Notes under the pieces: generated by a model | Seen by the model: only the letters and a program-made list of their open reading frames with translations | Database searches by the model: none | Told to the model about the DNA's origin: nothing | Made by a program: the position numbers and the translations under genes | Assembly: GCA_001464455.1 (NCBI GenBank) | Contig: LNEI01000010.1 | Span: forward strand, 1 to 64,000 | Direction of reading: 5' to 3' | Length of the DNA: 64,000 nt | Source: Acidobacteria bacterium Ga0077534 | Lineage (GTDB): Bacteria; Acidobacteriota; Blastocatellia; Pyrinomonadales; Pyrinomonadaceae | In this document: one piece after another, positions 19,140 through 29,787 of the stretch | How positions within the stretch are numbered: position 1 is the stretch's first letter | How the letters are laid out: each line of letters opens with the position of its first letter

Positions 19140-19985
19140 GGTGTTTCTCTCCTCGTTTGGGTTTGGCGGCGAAAACGTTTCCGCAGCCGTTTCAGCGTCA
19201 TCAGCCGAAAATTCTTCTAGTCTTAAGCTGCCAATCGACAGCTGGCCAGCCGTCTCTTTTGGCTGCATTTTTGCGAGCCGGTCGGCTCCCTGGAAGACGA
19301 GCGACGCCTCCCAATACTCGTTGATCTTTGTCACGATCAGGCGAACGATCTCGCCGTCGATCTCTTCGCCGAGGTTGCGGAAAAACTTCCAGCGATCCTC
19401 AGCGGCCATGTCGGGGTGCGAGTATTCAAACTCAAACAGTACCGTCATCGACGTCGAATGGATCGCCGGTGGATCCATCATCAAACCGCGAGCAATTCGC
19501 GGATTCATCAGCGCGTCGATCTTGTAGCGGGCATTGATGCCAGGCACGCCATTCGCGGCTTTGCCCTCGGCGTCCCACGCCACGTTCGAAACAGAACCGA
19601 GCCAGCCGTTAATGTCCCAGAACGTGTGGTTCGGGTAAACGGTCGCACCGAGCAGCAGCGGGACGCTCTCCTCGAGAACGTTGTCACGCGTCCAGTCGAT
19701 CCAGTGGCCAGGCACGAGCACCTTCGACAAAGCCCGAAAATCGACCGAGATATAGTCGCCGTCCTGCGGCATCACGTCTTCGATTTTTTTGAATTCGAAG
19801 TTGTCGTTCTTGCCGTTGTGCGACCACTGCGAAACCAATCCCGCCGCCTTGAGACGCTCAGCAAGCTGCTCGTCGGGCCTGATCTCCGCACAGCGAAGCG
19901 GCGACAGCAGCTGCACACGCCCCGCCATCGCATCGAGCGTCGCGAGCTGAATTCCGTTTGGCAAAATGATCGGTTTCATTTTCAT
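18696..19985 (-). CDS. Head maturation protease with fused scaffold (Mu gpI-like)
   Basis: The protein is 429 residues long. Residues about 1-250 form the candidate protease part, with LLLGATVYPNHTFWDINGWLG (candidate catalytic His) and IHSTSMTVLFEFEYS (candidate catalytic Ser). Residues about 283-429 form a charged helical scaffold part rich in Glu, Lys and Ala. In Mu the protease I gene contains an in-frame internal start making the scaffold Z from its 3' end; the same layout is seen here. The 5' end overlaps the KTSC gene by one base. Confidence 0.7.
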   Translation of the reverse strand: MKMKPIILPNGIQLATLDAMAGRVQLLSPLRCAEIRPDEQLAERLKAAGLVSQWSHNGKNDNFEFKKIEDVMPQDGDYISVDFRALSKVLVPGHWIDWTRDNVLEESVPLLLGATVYPNHTFWDINGWLGSVSNVAWDAEGKAANGVPGINARYKIDALMNPRIARGLMMDPPAIHSTSMTVLFEFEYSHPDMAAEDRWKFFRNLGEEIDGEIVRLIVTKINEYWEASLVFQGADRLAKMQPKETAGQLSIGSLRLEEFSADDAETAAETFSPPNPNEERNTMKLTKEQKARLGIEFDGEDVPDEQILAAVDQLAEKAGQVDTVNIAELQKKAEAGEAFIAKQRAEVTRLAKIAEFGAEDATGELEEVISQQIAAADFDTLVKLEGYYTKRVAEKFPKDGRSSLEDSDQVDDAAGTASNAAELPDSGVL

Positions 19986-20224
19986 TACTTCCAGTCGTCG
20001 AGTTTCTCGTAAGCTCGCGGCCGCAGCTGCGAGTTTAGGAACTTGCCAGCCGAGCGGCCTTTCTTGCCGTCGAACTGCGTTTGAAAATCCTTCCAGAGCT
20101 GCTCGCTGCAGTTCGGGTAGCGATATGCCGTGCCGTTCTTAAACCGCACGATGATCGATTCGTTGTCGGCGTCGTATGCTGCCGACTCTAAATTGCTCGA
20201 TTCAACGGGTTGAAAATCACTCAT
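19985..20224 (-). CDS. KTSC-domain small protein
   Basis: The protein is 79 residues long from the ATG at 20,222-20,224. The core reads SSNLESAAYDADNESIIVRF, then FKNGTAYRYPNCSEQLWKDF, then AGKFLNSQLRP, which is the KTSC domain (about 60 residues, found alone in phages and fused to a lysyl-tRNA synthetase in some bacteria). Its biochemical role is unknown; in phages it typically lies in the head gene region, as here. Confidence 0.8.
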   Translation of the reverse strand: MSDFQPVESSNLESAAYDADNESIIVRFKNGTAYRYPNCSEQLWKDFQTQFDGKKGRSAGKFLNSQLRPRAYEKLDDWK

Positions 20225-21191
20225 CTTCGTCCTCAAGGCCCTCGATCACACCTTCCAAGCGTGTGCGGCAGTTCGGGTGAAAAGGAGGAAAACCGCGTCC
20301 GGCCTTGGTGATCTCGTCATCGAGCGTTTTGCCGTCTTCCTCCAGGTACTTCTTGATCGTGTCAACTGGGTTTTTGGCTATGCCCTTACCGAGTTCCGAT
20401 CCGTACATCTGCAGGGCAAACTCGCTCGGGTCCAGCCGATTGAGCCTTTGAATCGCTCCCTGGGCGACGCCGATCTTGACAAGCTTTCCGTCGAGAAATT
20501 CGCATAACGGAGTCGTTCGAGAATCGAGGGTCGCGACAATGCGAGCAAGTTCGATCTCGGCCTGAGCCATTGTTCCGATGTGAGCCCAATTTCTGGTGCG
20601 CTGAACAGCTGTCTGAACGATAGTGAGTGTTTGCCGGTCAGTGAGTTTTTTGAATCTGTCGCCCGAAGCTCGCCGAAAGTCTGCAAGTTCCTCGCTCGAT
20701 TCGCGTCCGAATAGTGCAGCACCGTCTTTGAAATATCGCTCGACAAAGAATTTCCGCATCGGCTCGCGAGTGTTATCGGCGAACTTGCTGAAATAGAAAT
20801 GGTCGAGATCTCCGATAAACCTGATCGAGGTCCGGTCATCTCCGCCGAGCCGCAGTCGAAGCCGCGGATTGACGTCGCCGAAAACGGTGAGGTCGGTGAG
20901 CCGGTAAAACTCGTAAATGCGGCTGGTCGTTCGGCGGATGACCTGTCGGTATCGCTCCGAAGCCCAACCGTTGCCCCAGGCACGTTCGAGTTCGTTAAGT
21001 AGCTGCTCGGCGAAGTCTTCTGCTCCGTCGAAGTCTCCGGCGTCGTGCCGGCGTAGGAAATCAGCGAGACGCTGAAGCAATAAGCTAAGACCATCGTCAG
21101 CACTAGCGCCGACCGAGCGAAGATACTGCTGAATGAACCTTTCGAGAATTTCATCTATTTGCTCCTCTGTTAATTTCAGGCTGGTAGAGCC
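20217..21191 (-). CDS. MuF-type head morphogenesis protein, probably made as portal fusion
   Basis: From the slippery run to the stop the frame is 324 codons, beginning GSTSLKLTEEQIDEILERF. The C-terminal part has the MuF signature GRGFPPFHPNCRTRLEG, and the middle contains ERYFKDGAALFGRES. MuF proteins are minor head components near the portal. No ATG or GTG exists in frame before residue 60; the only candidates are a TTG at 21,080 and a CTG at 21,179, both without a clear ribosome-binding site. The frame is open back through the end of the portal gene, so a -1 shift there would fuse the two. Portal-MuF fusions exist in other phages. Confidence 0.75.
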   Translation of the reverse strand, partial: GSTSLKLTEEQIDEILERFIQQYLRSVGASADDGLSLLLQRLADFLRRHDAGDFDGAEDFAEQLLNELERAWGNGWASERYRQVIRRTTSRIYEFYRLTDLTVFGDVNPRLRLRLGGDDRTSIRFIGDLDHFYFSKFADNTREPMRKFFVERYFKDGAALFGRESSEELADFRRASGDRFKKLTDRQTLTIVQTAVQRTRNWAHIGTMAQAEIELARIVATLDSRTTPLCEFLDGKLVKIGVAQGAIQRLNRLDPSEFALQMYGSELGKGIAKNPVDTIKKYLEEDGKTLDDEITKAGRGFPPFHPNCRTRLEGVIEGLEDEDE

Positions 21192-22690
21192 TTTTTTTTT
21201 ACGAACGGCACGACGGTTTCCGTATCGATCCGTTCAGGTTGAAAGTTCGCCAGCTCAATAACCTCAGGCCGGTAAACGTATTTTTGCTGTCGCTTATCAA
21301 AGCTCAGCTTCAGCGTCCGTGTTTGTTTTGTGCTGCGTGCGAGGTTCGTCTTCGCCGGAATGCCGGCATCCGAAATGAGCAGGTCCGTATCGAACCACGC
21401 CTCCTCGCCAATCTCTTGTGCCGCCTGGTCAGGCGATATCGCTCCGTTCTTCAGCTTCGAAAGCACGGTGCGAAAATGGATCTCATCGGTTTCGGCCTCG
21501 GCCTTCGCGTTGCGGCTGTGTGCCTTGTCAAAAGCCAGACTGACGCCGATCACATCGGCACCGCCGAGCATCAGGTCGAGCCGATAGGTCCGCTCCATTC
21601 GCCGCTTCACGATTCGCTGCATTCCCTGGACCTGTGCCGTCAGCAGGTAATAGACGACGTCGGCAAACGTCTCGGTCGTCGAATCCGTACGGCCGTGAAA
21701 TCCGGGCATGGCCCCGAGGCCGGAAAATACTTGTTCCTCCGAGATCCGGTTGGCGTCATAAAGCCCGCTCGCACCTTCGGCCAGATTCGTGTGCTCGATC
21801 TTCTGATCGCGAAACGTTACCAGCAGGCCGTTCTTGAAACCGGATTCGAGAGCCTTTGTCACGCTCGATCGGTAGGCCACGCAGCGGGCGGTGTATTCCG
21901 CCTCGGTCTCGCCCGATGGATTTCGCCTCGGTGCGACCAGCGAAGCCGTCACCAACCCGAGCAGCCCGAACTTCGTTGCGACAAACTTCAGGTTGTCCAT
22001 CAGCGGCTTCTGCATTTCGAGGATCGCCTCGATAGCTCCGGTCGCTGGCGGTTTGGCATACGGCGAGTTCTCGACCGTCGAAAGAGCAAAATACCGATAC
22101 GTCTCGGCGTTCAGCGGCACCAGCCCGAGCGGATCGCTCGAACCGTTTCGCCGCAGGATGTTGAACGATTTCTGGAAAGGGCGATAGGTGTCGGTGTCGC
22201 GGTCGTACTTGAACCGGATCTGTTCGACCGGGACAAGCACGACCTTTTCAACGCGGCGACCGGGAAGATTTACAACGTCCTCGGACGAGACTGCACCCGA
22301 CCACGCGACCGATGTCAGGTACTGATTGATCAGGCCATCGACGCCGCAGCCGTGTTCGTAGATCCTCGAGGCCGATTCGTTCAGACGGTTTACCGCTGCC
22401 TCAGCCGCCGCGTCCGTCCTGGCATCGACCGAAAGCTGATGTCCGGGATTGCCGAGATTGACGATGTTGGCGACGTATTGTGAAAAGTCTGGGTTGTAGA
22501 TCCAAAAGTTCTTGAGGACCTTCAACATCTCGAAATCGACAACCGGCGAGACCGTATCGAACGACGCGAGATAAGCCGACATCGCCCCCGATATCGTCTC
22601 CTCGGACGAACGCCCCGAAGCTGGCAGCTCGACCCCGAGCGTCCCGCGAAAAGCGGCATATCCGATCTTTAGTCTTTCGAGAATTGTCAT
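21176..22690 (-). CDS. Portal protein (Mu gp29-like)
   Basis: The protein is about 504 residues long from the ATG at 22,688-22,690 (MTILERLKIGYAAFRGTLG); an upstream alternative at 22,750 reads through a simple repeat and is less likely. It lies between terminase and MuF. The layout is that of a portal: an N-terminal strand/helix region (VDFEMLKVLKNFWIYNPDFSQYV), a wing, then long helical stem (NRISEEQVFSGLGAMPGF, AQVQGMQRIVKRRMERTY), and a basic-acidic C-terminus ending in KKKALPA. Portals form the dodecameric DNA channel. Its last codons contain the A9 run discussed under the slippery site. Confidence 0.8.
   Translation of the reverse strand: MTILERLKIGYAAFRGTLGVELPASGRSSEETISGAMSAYLASFDTVSPVVDFEMLKVLKNFWIYNPDFSQYVANIVNLGNPGHQLSVDARTDAAAEAAVNRLNESASRIYEHGCGVDGLINQYLTSVAWSGAVSSEDVVNLPGRRVEKVVLVPVEQIRFKYDRDTDTYRPFQKSFNILRRNGSSDPLGLVPLNAETYRYFALSTVENSPYAKPPATGAIEAILEMQKPLMDNLKFVATKFGLLGLVTASLVAPRRNPSGETEAEYTARCVAYRSSVTKALESGFKNGLLVTFRDQKIEHTNLAEGASGLYDANRISEEQVFSGLGAMPGFHGRTDSTTETFADVVYYLLTAQVQGMQRIVKRRMERTYRLDLMLGGADVIGVSLAFDKAHSRNAKAEAETDEIHFRTVLSKLKNGAISPDQAAQEIGEEAWFDTDLLISDAGIPAKTNLARSTKQTRTLKLSFDKRQQKYVYRPEVIELANFQPERIDTETVVPFVKKKALPA
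21191..21200 (-). promoter_or_regulatory. dnaX-type slippery site A_AAA_AAG in an A9 run
   Basis: The portal codons are GTA AAA AAA AAG GCT. The last heptamer, A_AAA_AAG (21,191-21,197), is in the correct phase and is the sequence used for -1 frameshifting in E. coli dnaX. A -1 ribosomal slip, or one extra A added by transcriptional slippage, continues as GGC TCT ACC into the open MuF frame instead of stopping five codons later at TGA 21,176-21,178. Confidence 0.65.
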
Positions 22691-22722
22691 CTTGCGTTTA
22701 ATCGCCCTGTACCGATCCGTCC

Positions 22723-22757
22723 CGACCACCGACCACTGACCACCGACCACCGCCTCT
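22723..22757. repeat. Short tandem ACCACCG/ACCACTG repeat
   Basis: About five units of the form CGACCACC or TGACCACC lie in the spacer between portal and the DUF6527 gene. On the minus strand it reads GGTGGTCGGTGGTCAG. It is not protein-coding if the portal starts at 22,690. No function is apparent. Confidence 0.5.
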
Positions 22758-22799
22758 GACCGCCATCAGAAACAACCAGAAACAATATGGCGGCGAGAT

Positions 22800-23075
22800 T
22801 TACCAGCACTCATTCGTCCATTCCGGCAGTTCGACCGTCTGCCCTGCAAGATCGTGAAAACAGTCGTTCAAGAACTCGATCTTTCCGTCGCGAACAAACG
22901 AGTGACATCGGCTCGGCTCATGATCCGGGTTGCACAACAGCGACGGACTGAATGTCGGACTGTCCACATCGCCGCTGAAAGTCCACCGCTGATCGAAAAC
23001 GTGGGGCGTTTTGCACCCAGGACAGTAAAAAACGTACTGGGGCTGCTCATGCTCTGACTTCCAAACTTTCGCCAT
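22800..23075 (-). CDS. Small zinc-binding phage protein (DUF6527-like)
   Basis: The protein is 91 residues long from the ATG at 23,073-23,075. It contains FYCPGCKTPHVF (CxxC), then WTFSGDVDSPTFSPSL, RCHSFVRDGKIEFLNDCFHDLAGQ and ends VELPEWTNECW. This ordered set of Cys and His residues around the PTFSPS phrase is typical of DUF6527, a small metal-binding phage family of unknown function. It directly follows the large terminase gene, with a two-base gap. Confidence 0.75.
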   Translation of the reverse strand: MAKVWKSEHEQPQYVFYCPGCKTPHVFDQRWTFSGDVDSPTFSPSLLCNPDHEPSRCHSFVRDGKIEFLNDCFHDLAGQTVELPEWTNECW

Positions 23076-25544: not shown

Positions 25545-26075
25545 TTATTTCTTGACGATCGACCCGACCACGATGCCCGCCGCACCGCCGATCACGACCC
25601 ACTTAAACTGTTTCCAGAACGTGACCTGGTTCTTTTTCAAGACCTGATTCGCGGACTTCACCGCCGCCACCTCCCGGTTTGCCGCGGCGATCGCATTCCG
25701 CAGCTCGTCTTTCTCCTGGGCGTCAAGCGTCCGGAGATTTTTCAAACCGGTCGAAAGCTGCCTTTCCAAACCGACCAGCTCTCCAAATTTGTCGATCTGC
25801 AACCCTTGGGCATTTATCAGACGCCTTGCTGCTTTCAGCTCCTCGACCGCCTCGGCACACGCCGCCCGCAGGCCCGCATCGTTCGGGTCAGCGGCTGGGG
25901 TCGGTGTCGTGACAGGGATAGCCGAGTCCGGCGAGGTCTGCGCATAGCTGACTTGTGCTGGGAGTATTTGGAAGGCGATAGCGAACAGCACGCTCGTAAT
26001 TATCACGCTCACGCTGAACGATCTCAGCAACCTGTTTGACCTCTTCTGCTTTTGCATCACGTTTTGCCTCAACAT
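25545..26075 (-). CDS. Spanin-partner-like envelope protein overlapping the Rz-like gene
   Basis: The protein is 176 residues long from the ATG at 26,073-26,075, behind AGGAAG. Its 5' third (about 190 bases) lies within the Rz-like gene in another frame. It has a basic N-terminus, a hydrophobic signal-like segment (SVSVIITSVLFAIAFQILPAQVSYAQ), a periplasmic helical middle, and a C-terminal membrane segment (WVVIGGAAGIVVGSIV). There is no lipobox cysteine, unlike classical Rz1. Signal plus C-terminal membrane helix recalls unimolecular spanins. The lysis context supports an outer or inner envelope role. Confidence 0.55.
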   Translation of the reverse strand: MLRQNVMQKQKRSNRLLRSFSVSVIITSVLFAIAFQILPAQVSYAQTSPDSAIPVTTPTPAADPNDAGLRAACAEAVEELKAARRLINAQGLQIDKFGELVGLERQLSTGLKNLRTLDAQEKDELRNAIAAANREVAAVKSANQVLKKNQVTFWKQFKWVVIGGAAGIVVGSIVKK

Positions 26076-26337
26076 TAAAAACTTCCTGCTCGCGGATTTT
26101 GATCTGGCTGGCGATCTCTGCCGCACGTTCCAGAGCCTCGACCCTTTCCATCTCGGCCTTTGCGGCCTGCTGCTCGTAAACCCGAACTTCGCTCCACGTC
26201 TGAAACGTGTTGACCCAGCTCGTCACCAGCAGCCCGACGAACAGAGCGACGAGGCTCACGGTCACAAACCGCTGGGCACCAGACAGGTCCCGCCACAGAT
26301 CACCGATTGCGTCTCGAATTGTCACTTTCTCAGTCAT
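25888..26337 (-). CDS. i-spanin (Rz-like)
   Basis: The protein is 149 residues long. A short cytoplasmic N-terminus is followed by one membrane helix (FVTVSLVALFVGLLVTSWV), a long coiled coil (QQAAKAEMERVEALERAAEIAS and on) and a Pro/Cys-containing C-terminus. This is the layout of Rz-type inner-membrane spanins, which with an outer-membrane partner fuse the membranes at the end of lysis. Its stop region is overlapped in another frame by the neighbouring envelope protein gene, as in Rz/Rz1 pairs. Confidence 0.6.
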   Translation of the reverse strand: MTEKVTIRDAIGDLWRDLSGAQRFVTVSLVALFVGLLVTSWVNTFQTWSEVRVYEQQAAKAEMERVEALERAAEIASQIKIREQEVFNVEAKRDAKAEEVKQVAEIVQRERDNYERAVRYRLPNTPSTSQLCADLAGLGYPCHDTDPSR

Positions 26338-26636
26338 TTGCCTGCCATCCCTTTGATCAGGTCCTTGATCTCTTTCAGGTCGCCTTCGATCCGGCCAAAC
26401 CGCTCGCTCTGCCGCCTGTCAACTTCACTCGCGACCCGCTGGTTAAAATGAATGCCCTCGTTCGCCCGGTGCGATTCGAGGTCCTTCCACGTGTCCTCAA
26501 GCGACTGGTCCTGCCGGACCTGTGCCTTTTCAACCGCGCCCACTTTCGCCTCCAACCGGATCTGCCATGAAATCCAAGCGATCAGGCCCAAAGCTGTCGG
26601 CACTATAAAGCCGGGATGGAGAAACGGATTTTCCAT
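26334..26636 (-). CDS. Small membrane-anchored coiled-coil protein (holin/lysis module)
   Basis: The protein is 100 residues long. One N-terminal membrane helix (IVPTALGLIAWISWQI) is followed by a coiled coil (KVGAVEKAQVRQDQSLEDTW) and a basic amphipathic C-terminus. It resembles XhlA/DUF2730-type phage lysis proteins in layout. It overlaps the Rz-like gene by four bases and lies next to the endolysin, so a holin-accessory function is inferred. Confidence 0.5.
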   Translation of the reverse strand: MENPFLHPGFIVPTALGLIAWISWQIRLEAKVGAVEKAQVRQDQSLEDTWKDLESHRANEGIHFNQRVASEVDRRQSERFGRIEGDLKEIKDLIKGMAGK

Positions 26637-26645
26637 TCAGGTGAT

Positions 26646-27518
26646 TCATTCAGGCGGTCCCGACAGGACCGGATTGCCAACGCCCTCGGTCGCACGCAGC
26701 GCATTCATTCCCGTGACGTAAGCAAAGATCTGCTCGTGATACTTCACAAACAGGACGATGATCCCGACGACGATCAGCACGACCAGGCCGAAAAGCCCGA
26801 TCTGCAGCCACAGCGGCAAACCCGCAACGACCGACACCACCGTCCCGATTCCCGTAATACCAAACAAGCTCGCCAGCCACGTCTTCGCCGTGTTGATCTG
26901 CGGCACATGTGCCGGGAACGAACCGCCCGCGATGCCCACGGTTTGCGGAGCCGGTGCTGCGGGACCAGTAGCCGGTTCTTGAGTAGCCGGATTTTGAGAG
27001 GCGTTTGTTTCAGTCGGCGGGACGTCTATCAGGCCGGGCTCCGCGAGATCTTGTTTTAGCTGTTCGAGTTCGGATACCACTTTCGGCAGCGGCCCGATGT
27101 TCCATTCGGCCCGGTTGTCGTAATGCAGCGGAGCGGCATTGACCGAAACGTGAGCGTGCTGCGTATGAGCATTGGCGCCGCTGTACGGTCGCCATTTCCA
27201 AGCCGCTACACCTTTGACCGGATACGATGCGAGGATCCTTCGATTAAAAATGATGTACTTGATTCGCGGGTCTTTTGACGCGATCAGAGCATCGACGATC
27301 ACACCGACCTTGACCGTGTTCGTCAGATCGGCGTCGATGTCGATCGCCGTCACCACGCCCTGGCCGCGAGAGTCCTTCACCCAGGGGTTATGGTCAGAGC
27401 TTCGCGAAGCATGAGCCGCATCGCCGATCGAACCGTCCGAGGCTCGGTCGCGGTTCGGATACGCAGCATTGATCTGCTCGCGTAGTTTCTTTAGGCTTTC
27501 AGCTACTCTCCAACTCAT
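26646..27518 (-). CDS. M15-type endolysin with C-terminal membrane hairpin
   Basis: The protein is 290 residues long. Residues about 25-130 form an M15/VanY-like peptidase: AHASRSSDHNPW (H43), VVTAIDID (D60) and QHAHVSV (H123) give the expected zinc ligands. Residues 140-210 are a Pro/Ala/Thr-rich linker. Residues about 213-233 and 236-258 form two membrane segments, followed by a short tail. The enzyme would cut peptidoglycan stem peptides; the membrane hairpin is unusual for an endolysin and may hold it at the membrane or substitute for a holin. No signal peptide is present at the N-terminus. Confidence 0.75.
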   Translation of the reverse strand: MSWRVAESLKKLREQINAAYPNRDRASDGSIGDAAHASRSSDHNPWVKDSRGQGVVTAIDIDADLTNTVKVGVIVDALIASKDPRIKYIIFNRRILASYPVKGVAAWKWRPYSGANAHTQHAHVSVNAAPLHYDNRAEWNIGPLPKVVSELEQLKQDLAEPGLIDVPPTETNASQNPATQEPATGPAAPAPQTVGIAGGSFPAHVPQINTAKTWLASLFGITGIGTVVSVVAGLPLWLQIGLFGLVVLIVVGIIVLFVKYHEQIFAYVTGMNALRATEGVGNPVLSGPPE

Positions 27519-27679: not shown

Positions 27680-27755
27680 TGGTCGCGGGGACCGGACTTG
27701 AACCGGTGACCTTCGGGTTATGAGCCCAACGAGCTACCAACTGCTCCACCCCGCA
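27680..27755 (-). tRNA. tRNA-fMet (CAT), initiator type, inside the prophage
   Basis: The 76-base gene includes the 3' CCA. The acceptor stem is strong from position 2 and position 1-72 is a U-G pair; the D stem is GAGC/GCTC (A11-U24); the anticodon loop is CTCATAA; the anticodon stem ends with three consecutive G-C pairs (GGG/CCC); the T arm is ACCGG-TTCAAGT-CCGGT. The three G-C pairs and A11-U24 are hallmarks of bacterial initiator tRNA. It lies between the endolysin and Gam-like genes on the late-gene strand. Confidence 0.92.
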
Positions 27756-29286: not shown

Positions 29287-29787
29287 TTAAAGCCCTTCTA
29301 TTCGACAGATACACTCAATCGAAAAAGGCGGAAAACCAAGATCTCTGCCCCAAACCTCTTCGCTGTATTCCAACAAGCTCAAACGCCTGATCACTCGCAG
29401 CTTTGCCCGAGATAGCTCCACGTCGATTACGCGGCCGTTGTGAGCTTCGCAGCCATACGAGATCGCGTGAACGATGCGGGCTTCGGAAAGGGTTTGGAGG
29501 TGGACGTAGTTGCGGACGCGTTGAACAAAATACTGAGCGATCAGGTAAACATCGTCGTCGCTCGTCTCATCGAGATACCCTCGTGCCCATTCGCGAATGG
29601 TCTGGAGTTCCTCCGGCGACTCTCGCCCGAACAAGGCGGCGCCGTCTTTGAAGTATCGCTCGGTGAGAAATCGCTGCAGTTCGCAGTCAAAGTTATCCAC
29701 GAGCGGGCTGATATAAAAGCCACGCGGCCATTCTTTCAAGAACCGGATCGATGGCCGATCCGGCCCGCCAAGTCCTATTCTAAGCAC
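29287..29787 (-). CDS. Truncated paralogue of the MuF head protein in the lysogeny operon
   Basis: The product is 166 residues long, from a GTG two codons after the TAG of the upstream gene in the same frame. It aligns with the MuF protein of this phage over nearly its whole length: LRIGLGG/LRLRLGG, SIRFL/SIRFI, and an almost identical ERYFKDGAALFGRES, ending in GFPPFSIECICRIEG versus GFPPFHPNCRTRLEG. It lacks the first approximately 108 residues and an internal stretch, and has lost the HPNCR motif. It may be a remnant or a functional interfering copy expressed from the prophage. Confidence 0.7.
   Translation of the reverse strand: MLRIGLGGPDRPSIRFLKEWPRGFYISPLVDNFDCELQRFLTERYFKDGAALFGRESPEELQTIREWARGYLDETSDDDVYLIAQYFVQRVRNYVHLQTLSEARIVHAISYGCEAHNGRVIDVELSRAKLRVIRRLSLLEYSEEVWGRDLGFPPFSIECICRIEGL

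Follow-up and report, generated by a model that had tools for sequence, protein, structure and literature searches.

A conserved run of adenines as a probable frameshift site joining portal and MuF in a phage from an Acidobacteria genome

We analysed a stretch of 64,000 nucleotides (nt) at the start of contig LNEI01000010.1 (assembly GCA_001464455.1, Acidobacteria bacterium Ga0077534), hereafter the window, whose minus strand carries a phage head operon in the order terminase, portal, MuF-like protein, protease and major capsid. The portal gene holds a run of nine adenines (A9) close to its 3' end, and the MuF region directly downstream, a position shared with the MuF/SPP1 gp7 family, is read in the -1 frame. 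We propose, with a probability of about 0.88, that the A9 run serves for programmed -1 frameshifting, by which a minority of products would be extended into a portal-MuF chain, most likely through slippage of RNA polymerase. The conserved run, the missing MuF start, the existence of fused relatives and the coding pattern of the linker behind the run together argue that MuF is probably made as a portal-MuF fusion, and sequence comparison marks this fusion as a likely functional product. An earlier reading of the same DNA (the original prediction) had already suggested that one message gives both a portal and a portal-MuF fusion; this is supported by the finding that all 24 loci compared carry the run with MuF at -1, and by relatives in which the two proteins are fused in frame.

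We infer the following course, from the occurrence and rate of the shift to the machine that slips and the assembly of the product into the portal ring. Most transcripts or ribosomes would yield the portal protein, which ends four codons after the run, while a minority would shift to -1 and give a single portal-MuF chain, with MuF being taken into the head as part of the ring. The slip would be made by RNA polymerase adding one A to give an A10 message, as in Thermus thermophilus dnaX, with ribosomal -1 slippage at the heptamer A_AAA_AAG as the second choice; both may act.

The run and the MuF frame in related loci

On the minus strand the portal gene closes with GTA AAA AAA AAG GCT CTA CCA GCC TGA, and the in-phase A_AAA_AAG described earlier is indeed present within the A9 run. 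The run itself had been assigned to 21191-21200; the run is real but these limits were off, as the T9 of the plus strand covers 21192-21200 and 21191 is the G of AAG. Since an in-phase A_AAA_AAN heptamer comes with any A-run of at least nine, the heptamer is not independent evidence, whereas the length and position of the run are. The whole source genome (4.2 Mb) contains nine A9/T9 sites. In 115,947 bases from 16 related loci, a set that includes 10 kb of the window, there are 16 A or T runs of at least nine (13 of nine and three of ten), every one of them at a portal-MuF junction.

Searches with MuF and portal, both singly and as alignments, yielded 24 distinct loci, the window included, in which the portal is followed by an out-of-frame MuF. 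Duplicates of the same contig or genome were counted once (among them L002, L016 and L089, which are the window phage, L002 with 100% identity over 9572 bases, and L104, with the same junction as L103), and the counts leave out L128, whose portal end is missing, and L015/L033, a MuF fragment in the source genome. The run is A9 in 19 of these loci, A10 in five and never shorter, and MuF lies at -1 relative to the portal in every one, so that the conservation of run and frame, which the original prediction had proposed to look for in related phages, extends to the entire set. Pairwise MuF identity has a median of 49% and reaches at most 85% (276 pairs). The run occurs in three codon phases (18, 3 and 3 loci) with its length still at least nine in all, and in 11 of 16 loci a run of this length is possible only because the lysines are preceded by an Ile, Val or Leu codon that ends in A and is rare (usage 0.01-0.15 in the same genes). 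A portal search of genome contigs for close relatives gave one locus, and a MuF-alignment search of 396 genomes from the phylum matched three genomes only, none of them new. The homologous locus L007 (= L010) is present in a genome of the same family, and the host lineage is Acidobacteria. The window phage (about 16220-26750) also matches the viral contig IMGVR_UViG_3300002461_000293 with 100% identity in two stretches of 9572 and 8975 bases; this contig is probably the same phage or sample and was not counted as independent.

The MuF frame spans 338 codons from stop to stop, running without interruption from 21233 down to its stop at 20217, in agreement with the 324 stop-free codons first reported after the run. 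No ATG, GTG or TTG lies upstream of the run in this frame of the window; downstream of it TTG first occurs at codon 38 and ATG at codon 145, which bears out the remark that neither ATG nor GTG precedes residue 60. In 21 of 24 loci none of ATG, GTG and TTG occurs within the first 20 codons behind the run, the exceptions being L096, L097 and L115. The protein predicted from the frame, first assigned to a MuF head protein, is MuF-like: it matches PHROG_241 (head morphogenesis, E 2.2e-17), with PF04233 (E 3.9e-06, 28 bits) slightly under its cut-off of 29.6 and TIGR01641 at 34.8 bits against a curated cut-off of 39.65.

The linker between run and MuF domain was compared in nine loci that share it, over the 11 codons before the D of LTEEQID. 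Read in the MuF frame, variation is lowest at the second codon position (0.119) and highest at the third (0.444), the mark of protein coding in this frame. By this pattern the linker evolves as MuF codons and the MuF frame is coding from the run onward, while the portal frame closes within the same bases with tails that differ among loci. Two MuF frames, those of L022 and L023 (412 and 415 codons), are about 90 codons longer than those of the other loci compared. A second MuF-like fragment lies in the window at 29287-29787 (39% identity to MuF residues 111-269); no portal-like open reading frame (ORF) was noted beside it, and no search was made for one.

Relatives of a different arrangement carry further weight. 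Four, with 36-42% portal identity to the window, have a single ORF of 795-857 amino acids (aa) in which the portal profile is followed in frame by the MuF profile. Three of these (795, 798 and 802 aa) match portal-profile positions 21/22-482 and then MuF 7-314, and the fourth, L113 (857 aa), is looser (portal 18-489, then MuF 14-247). The run of nine is absent from all four, and a fused junction, AKKSLVSE, resembles by eye the predicted frameshift junction KKKGSTSLKLTEE. Five other relatives (L100, L101, L106, L112 and L114) have no MuF in the 1.1 to 4 kb of downstream sequence examined and no A-run of at least six at the portal end. By sequence, then, loci with MuF out of frame have the run, and those with MuF in frame, or with none found, lack it. 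In L106:285-1600 the portal match is split over two ORFs (112 and 323 aa), and the gene looks broken.

A tree of 34 portals (midpoint-rooted and with some forks open; L113 and the outgroups sit on long branches, and L014 is omitted for its truncated portal) places the fused forms outside the frameshift clade and the relatives lacking MuF in two groups within it; this nesting is what is expected if the run was lost together with MuF. Homologues that lack the run and give MuF its own start were looked for, and none was found among relatives with a portal identity of at least 36%. Farther away, the Enterococcus phage fHoEfm07 (portal 23% identical) has a separately annotated head-morphogenesis gene after the portal, which the MuF profile does not match. 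The six phage-collection records that match the portal (21-26% identity) served poorly as outgroups: the MuF profile matches none of the four of them that were examined (L024-L027), and the portal of MT121964 and of MT835790 is followed by a frame that by eye resembles the window's protease.

Several observations speak against a fusion made at the run. The KKK of the portal tail is also encoded by the A-run, and its conservation may perhaps be partly at the level of the peptide. L109, one of the in-frame fused relatives, has A7 at its junction, such that A-richness is not exclusive to the frameshift form. Possible starts exist in four loci: a TTG stands at codon 4 after the run in L096, L097 and L115, followed in L097 by an in-frame ATG at codon 5 (with no Shine-Dalgarno sequence seen at this ATG by eye), and L099 has a GTG 76 codons upstream in the MuF frame. 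In the remaining 20 loci no start codon is nearer than codon 24 after the run.

Polymerase or ribosome at the run

Polymerase slippage is somewhat favoured over ribosomal shifting, because the feature that the loci preserve is a run of nine or more, and because most of them lack the stimulators of a ribosomal signal. In bacteria, slippage is highly efficient at nine A's or T's, as stated in a passage of a review (PMC5009743). Alternatively, ribosomes shifting by -1 at A_AAA_AAG could be the sole makers of the same fusion, in the manner of E. coli dnaX; we consider this alternative a real one, if appreciably short of even odds. Its heptamer is in phase in all 24 loci, although any run of this length supplies it automatically.

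Two further points count for the ribosome and against slippage by the polymerase. The direction is -1 in all 24 loci, and by one rule of thumb, given in section 10 of PMC3711429, a constant shift direction is the sign of ribosomal shifting. In addition, a near stem of at least 5 bp follows the run in 10 of 24 loci, all ten among the 12 of the window's clade, as compared to 5-17% of control portal segments; this enrichment is unexplained by slippage alone, and RNA structure may contribute in that clade. Against a purely ribosomal mechanism, the near stem is absent from 14 of 24 loci and elsewhere always lies within 4 nt of the run, whereas ribosomal stimulatory structures generally begin 5-8 nt away (according to part of PMC4066793), a spacing found at none of the 24 loci. 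A Shine-Dalgarno-like sequence within 20 nt upstream of the run, the other expected stimulator, is present in 2 of 24. The stem was also considered as a general frameshift stimulator and rejected, given its presence in 10 of 24 loci only and a folding energy that is ordinary relative to portal segments (16 loci folded).

The lysine tRNAs of the host bear on the same choice. The presence of two such tRNAs in T. thermophilus has been suggested, in a passage of PMC5009743, as the reason that its dnaX uses slippage, and both occur in the host lineage here, which argues against the ribosome acting alone: tRNA-Lys CUU is found in the source genome, tRNA-Lys UUU in three genomes of the same genus, and both in one genome of the same class (L084). 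On the opposite side, only the 3' half of tRNA-Lys UUU was found in the source assembly (L077, G000:C1:105024-105054). Unrelated sequence stands where the 5' half of the gene at L077 should be, as the insertion of an element would leave it.

An overlapping frame in the MuF region and the surrounding genes

The MuF region also contains a second open frame, termed ORF X, which the original prediction did not mention. It lies in the +1 frame of MuF and is found in 22 of 24 loci with 199-296 codons and its own start 6-33 nt past the portal stop (21 nt in the window). Most likely it is an overprinted gene for an exported or membrane-anchored protein, export being predicted from its N-terminus. Within the first 199 codons of ORF X no stops are seen in 16 loci, compared to 58.5 expected from synonymous shuffling of MuF, and six further loci likewise have none (about 14.2 expected); these sums cover the 22 loci with ORF X and exclude L103 and L115. 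As a control, the +1 frame of the portal has 300 stops against 267.6 expected (16 loci, as for the counts that follow). MuF beyond the end of ORF X has 63 against 35.0, a count inflated because ORF X ends at a stop. The +2 frames are short of stops both in MuF under ORF X (188 against 235.8) and in the portal (264 against 345.7), and this shortfall of 20-24% indicates that the shuffle null is not exact, yet it is nothing like zero stops. In addition, the N-terminus of ORF X is more hydrophobic than in shuffles in all 22 loci (maximum KD15 1.83-3.10, P at most 0.021), and in the window it is predicted to form a helix over residues 5-35.

Alternatively, ORF X may be no gene at all, with the MuF +1 frame held open through codon bias, which we think improbable. 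Consistent with this alternative, structure prediction for the window gives disorder beyond the N-terminal helix, the window ORF X has no family match in Pfam, PHROG or NCBIfam, and two loci with the run, L103 and L115, lack ORF X, their MuF +1 frames holding 10 and 14 stops. The open frame has P < 0.05 per locus in 17 of 22; in the other five (L014, L028, L029, L096 and L105) a 199-codon open frame has a P of 0.052-0.37, and the permutation null has the inexactness noted above. Amino-acid similarity of ORF X exceeds that of synonymous shuffles (z 9.5 in the signal region), but it is also raised in the +2 frame (z 4.2-6.1 over the parts under ORF X), probably since shuffling destroys shared ancestry; the similarity test alone is weak, and the case for ORF X therefore rests on the absence of stops and on hydrophobicity. 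The shortfall of the +2 frames is far smaller than the complete lack of stops across 22 loci, the portal +1 frame shows no such opening, and the hydrophobic N-terminus recurs in each locus. As the run is kept in L103 and L115 without ORF X, it is not there for the sake of ORF X.

Translation of ORF X may, as a side effect, cover the MuF region with ribosomes. More tentatively, and a little short of even odds, this stretch of about 1 kb could act as a unit of three products through A9: the unslipped message would give portal and then exported ORF X, and the slipped A10 message the fusion, with re-initiation at ORF X keeping the MuF region ribosome-covered (anti-polarity) and slippage setting the dose of a head protein covalently present in some portal subunits.

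MuF might also have an independent start directly behind GAGGAG, at one of the non-standard codons ATA, ATT, ATC or CTG, leaving the run as the portal's lysine tail only. By eye, most of 16 loci compared do have a GGAGG-like sequence within a few nt upstream of an Ile codon; however, this candidate codon, which is ATA, ATT or ATC in 15 of the loci, is GTA in L022, nine loci conserve the MuF-frame residues ahead of it while differing by synonymous changes, and the Shine-Dalgarno sequence suits the ATG of ORF X. Such a start would also leave unexplained why all 24 loci keep nine A's or more and why in-frame fused relatives exist, and we regard it as quite unlikely. Least probable is a plus-strand transcription terminator made of run and stem and unrelated to MuF: the scan does report a terminator-like site at 21178-21192, but it gives four such sites in the scanned region against 3.8 expected in shuffles, the run is kept in the 14 of 24 loci without a near stem, and the missing MuF start would be left unexplained.

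Coordinates of the features described are collected below. The portal ATG at 22690 agrees with the MTIL start of the homologue L006, and no promoter-like sites were found in 19900-23000. Elsewhere in the window, the minus strand at 25545-27518 carries a lysis-like cassette composed of a peptidase-like ORF, small membrane ORFs and two overlapping ORFs (25888-26337 and 25545-26126), which on inspection of the sequence look like an overlapping spanin pair. A tRNA-Met gene at 27683-27755 adjoins the phage lysis and packaging genes and is a possible attachment site.

Table 1. Features of the portal-MuF region in window coordinates.
Feature	Coordinates	Strand	Evidence
A9 run, putative slippage site	21192..21200	minus (T9 on plus)	sequence; A9 or A10 in 24/24 loci
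Small stem, 5 bp, abutting the run; on the plus strand a stem and T-run, terminator-like	21178..21192	minus	folding, terminator scan
Portal gene, 504 aa, C-terminus KKKALPA-stop	21176..22690	minus	PHROG_3753, E 4.1e-84
MuF-frame coding region, run to stop codon, 324 codons, -1 relative to portal, no usable start seen	20217..21191	minus	ORF, profile matches, codon pattern
ORF X, 258 codons, MuF +1 frame (= portal frame), signal-peptide-like N-terminus	20378..21154	minus	ORF, stop and hydrophobicity tests
Shine-Dalgarno-like GAGGAG before ORF X	21162..21167	minus	sequence

Comparison with known systems

The original prediction compared the run to dnaX. The heptamer and the -1 direction are indeed those of E. 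coli dnaX, in which the shorter product is made by shifting; here, in contrast, a Shine-Dalgarno-like sequence lies upstream in only 2 of 24 loci and no downstream stem stands at the usual distance. The better comparison is T. thermophilus dnaX, which, from the relevant passage of PMC5009743, likewise has a run of nine and a host with two lysine tRNAs. There, however, the long product comes from the zero frame and the short ones from slipped messages, whereas here slippage would lead to the long product, the fusion.

Fused portal-MuF proteins in other phages, also invoked at the outset, are on record: as described in part of PMC7302621, portal and MuF are joined in one protein from a single gene in Microbacterium phages of subclusters EA3, EA5 and EA8 and cluster EB. 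That fusion is permanent and on all portal subunits, while the one proposed here would be conditional and on some subunits only. The C-terminal part of PHROG_2662, named 'portal', weakly matches the window MuF (E 0.0032). In SPP1, passages of PMC6316719 and PMC5576092 describe a portal (gp6) that binds MuF (gp7) and carries a few copies into the procapsid; delivery by the portal in few copies would be alike, but the SPP1 proteins are separate and joined non-covalently. Among the literature matches listed, judged by titles and the openings of abstracts in a search with subscription journals mostly outside it, none reports a portal-MuF frameshift.

If the fusion is made as proposed, the portal ring would be a mosaic in which some subunits carry covalent MuF, at a ratio set in decoding rather than in binding, and the shift would offer a simple handle on the number of MuF copies entering the head. 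The portal family shows permanent fusion, putative frameshift fusion and loss side by side. If ORF X is a gene, this double-stranded DNA phage would have an overlapping gene that is both long and conserved, likely for an exported protein, and that ordinary annotation would miss.

Programmed frameshifting is known from phage structural operons. As set out in parts of PMC2628397 and PMC7911831, the lambda-type G/GT genes use -1 frameshifting in such an operon to make an extended product, as we propose for portal and MuF; unlike these, G/GT are tail chaperones with other slippery sequences and are not part of the portal. What the present locus would add is a fusion of portal and MuF that is conditional, accompanied by an overlapping gene hidden in the same region.

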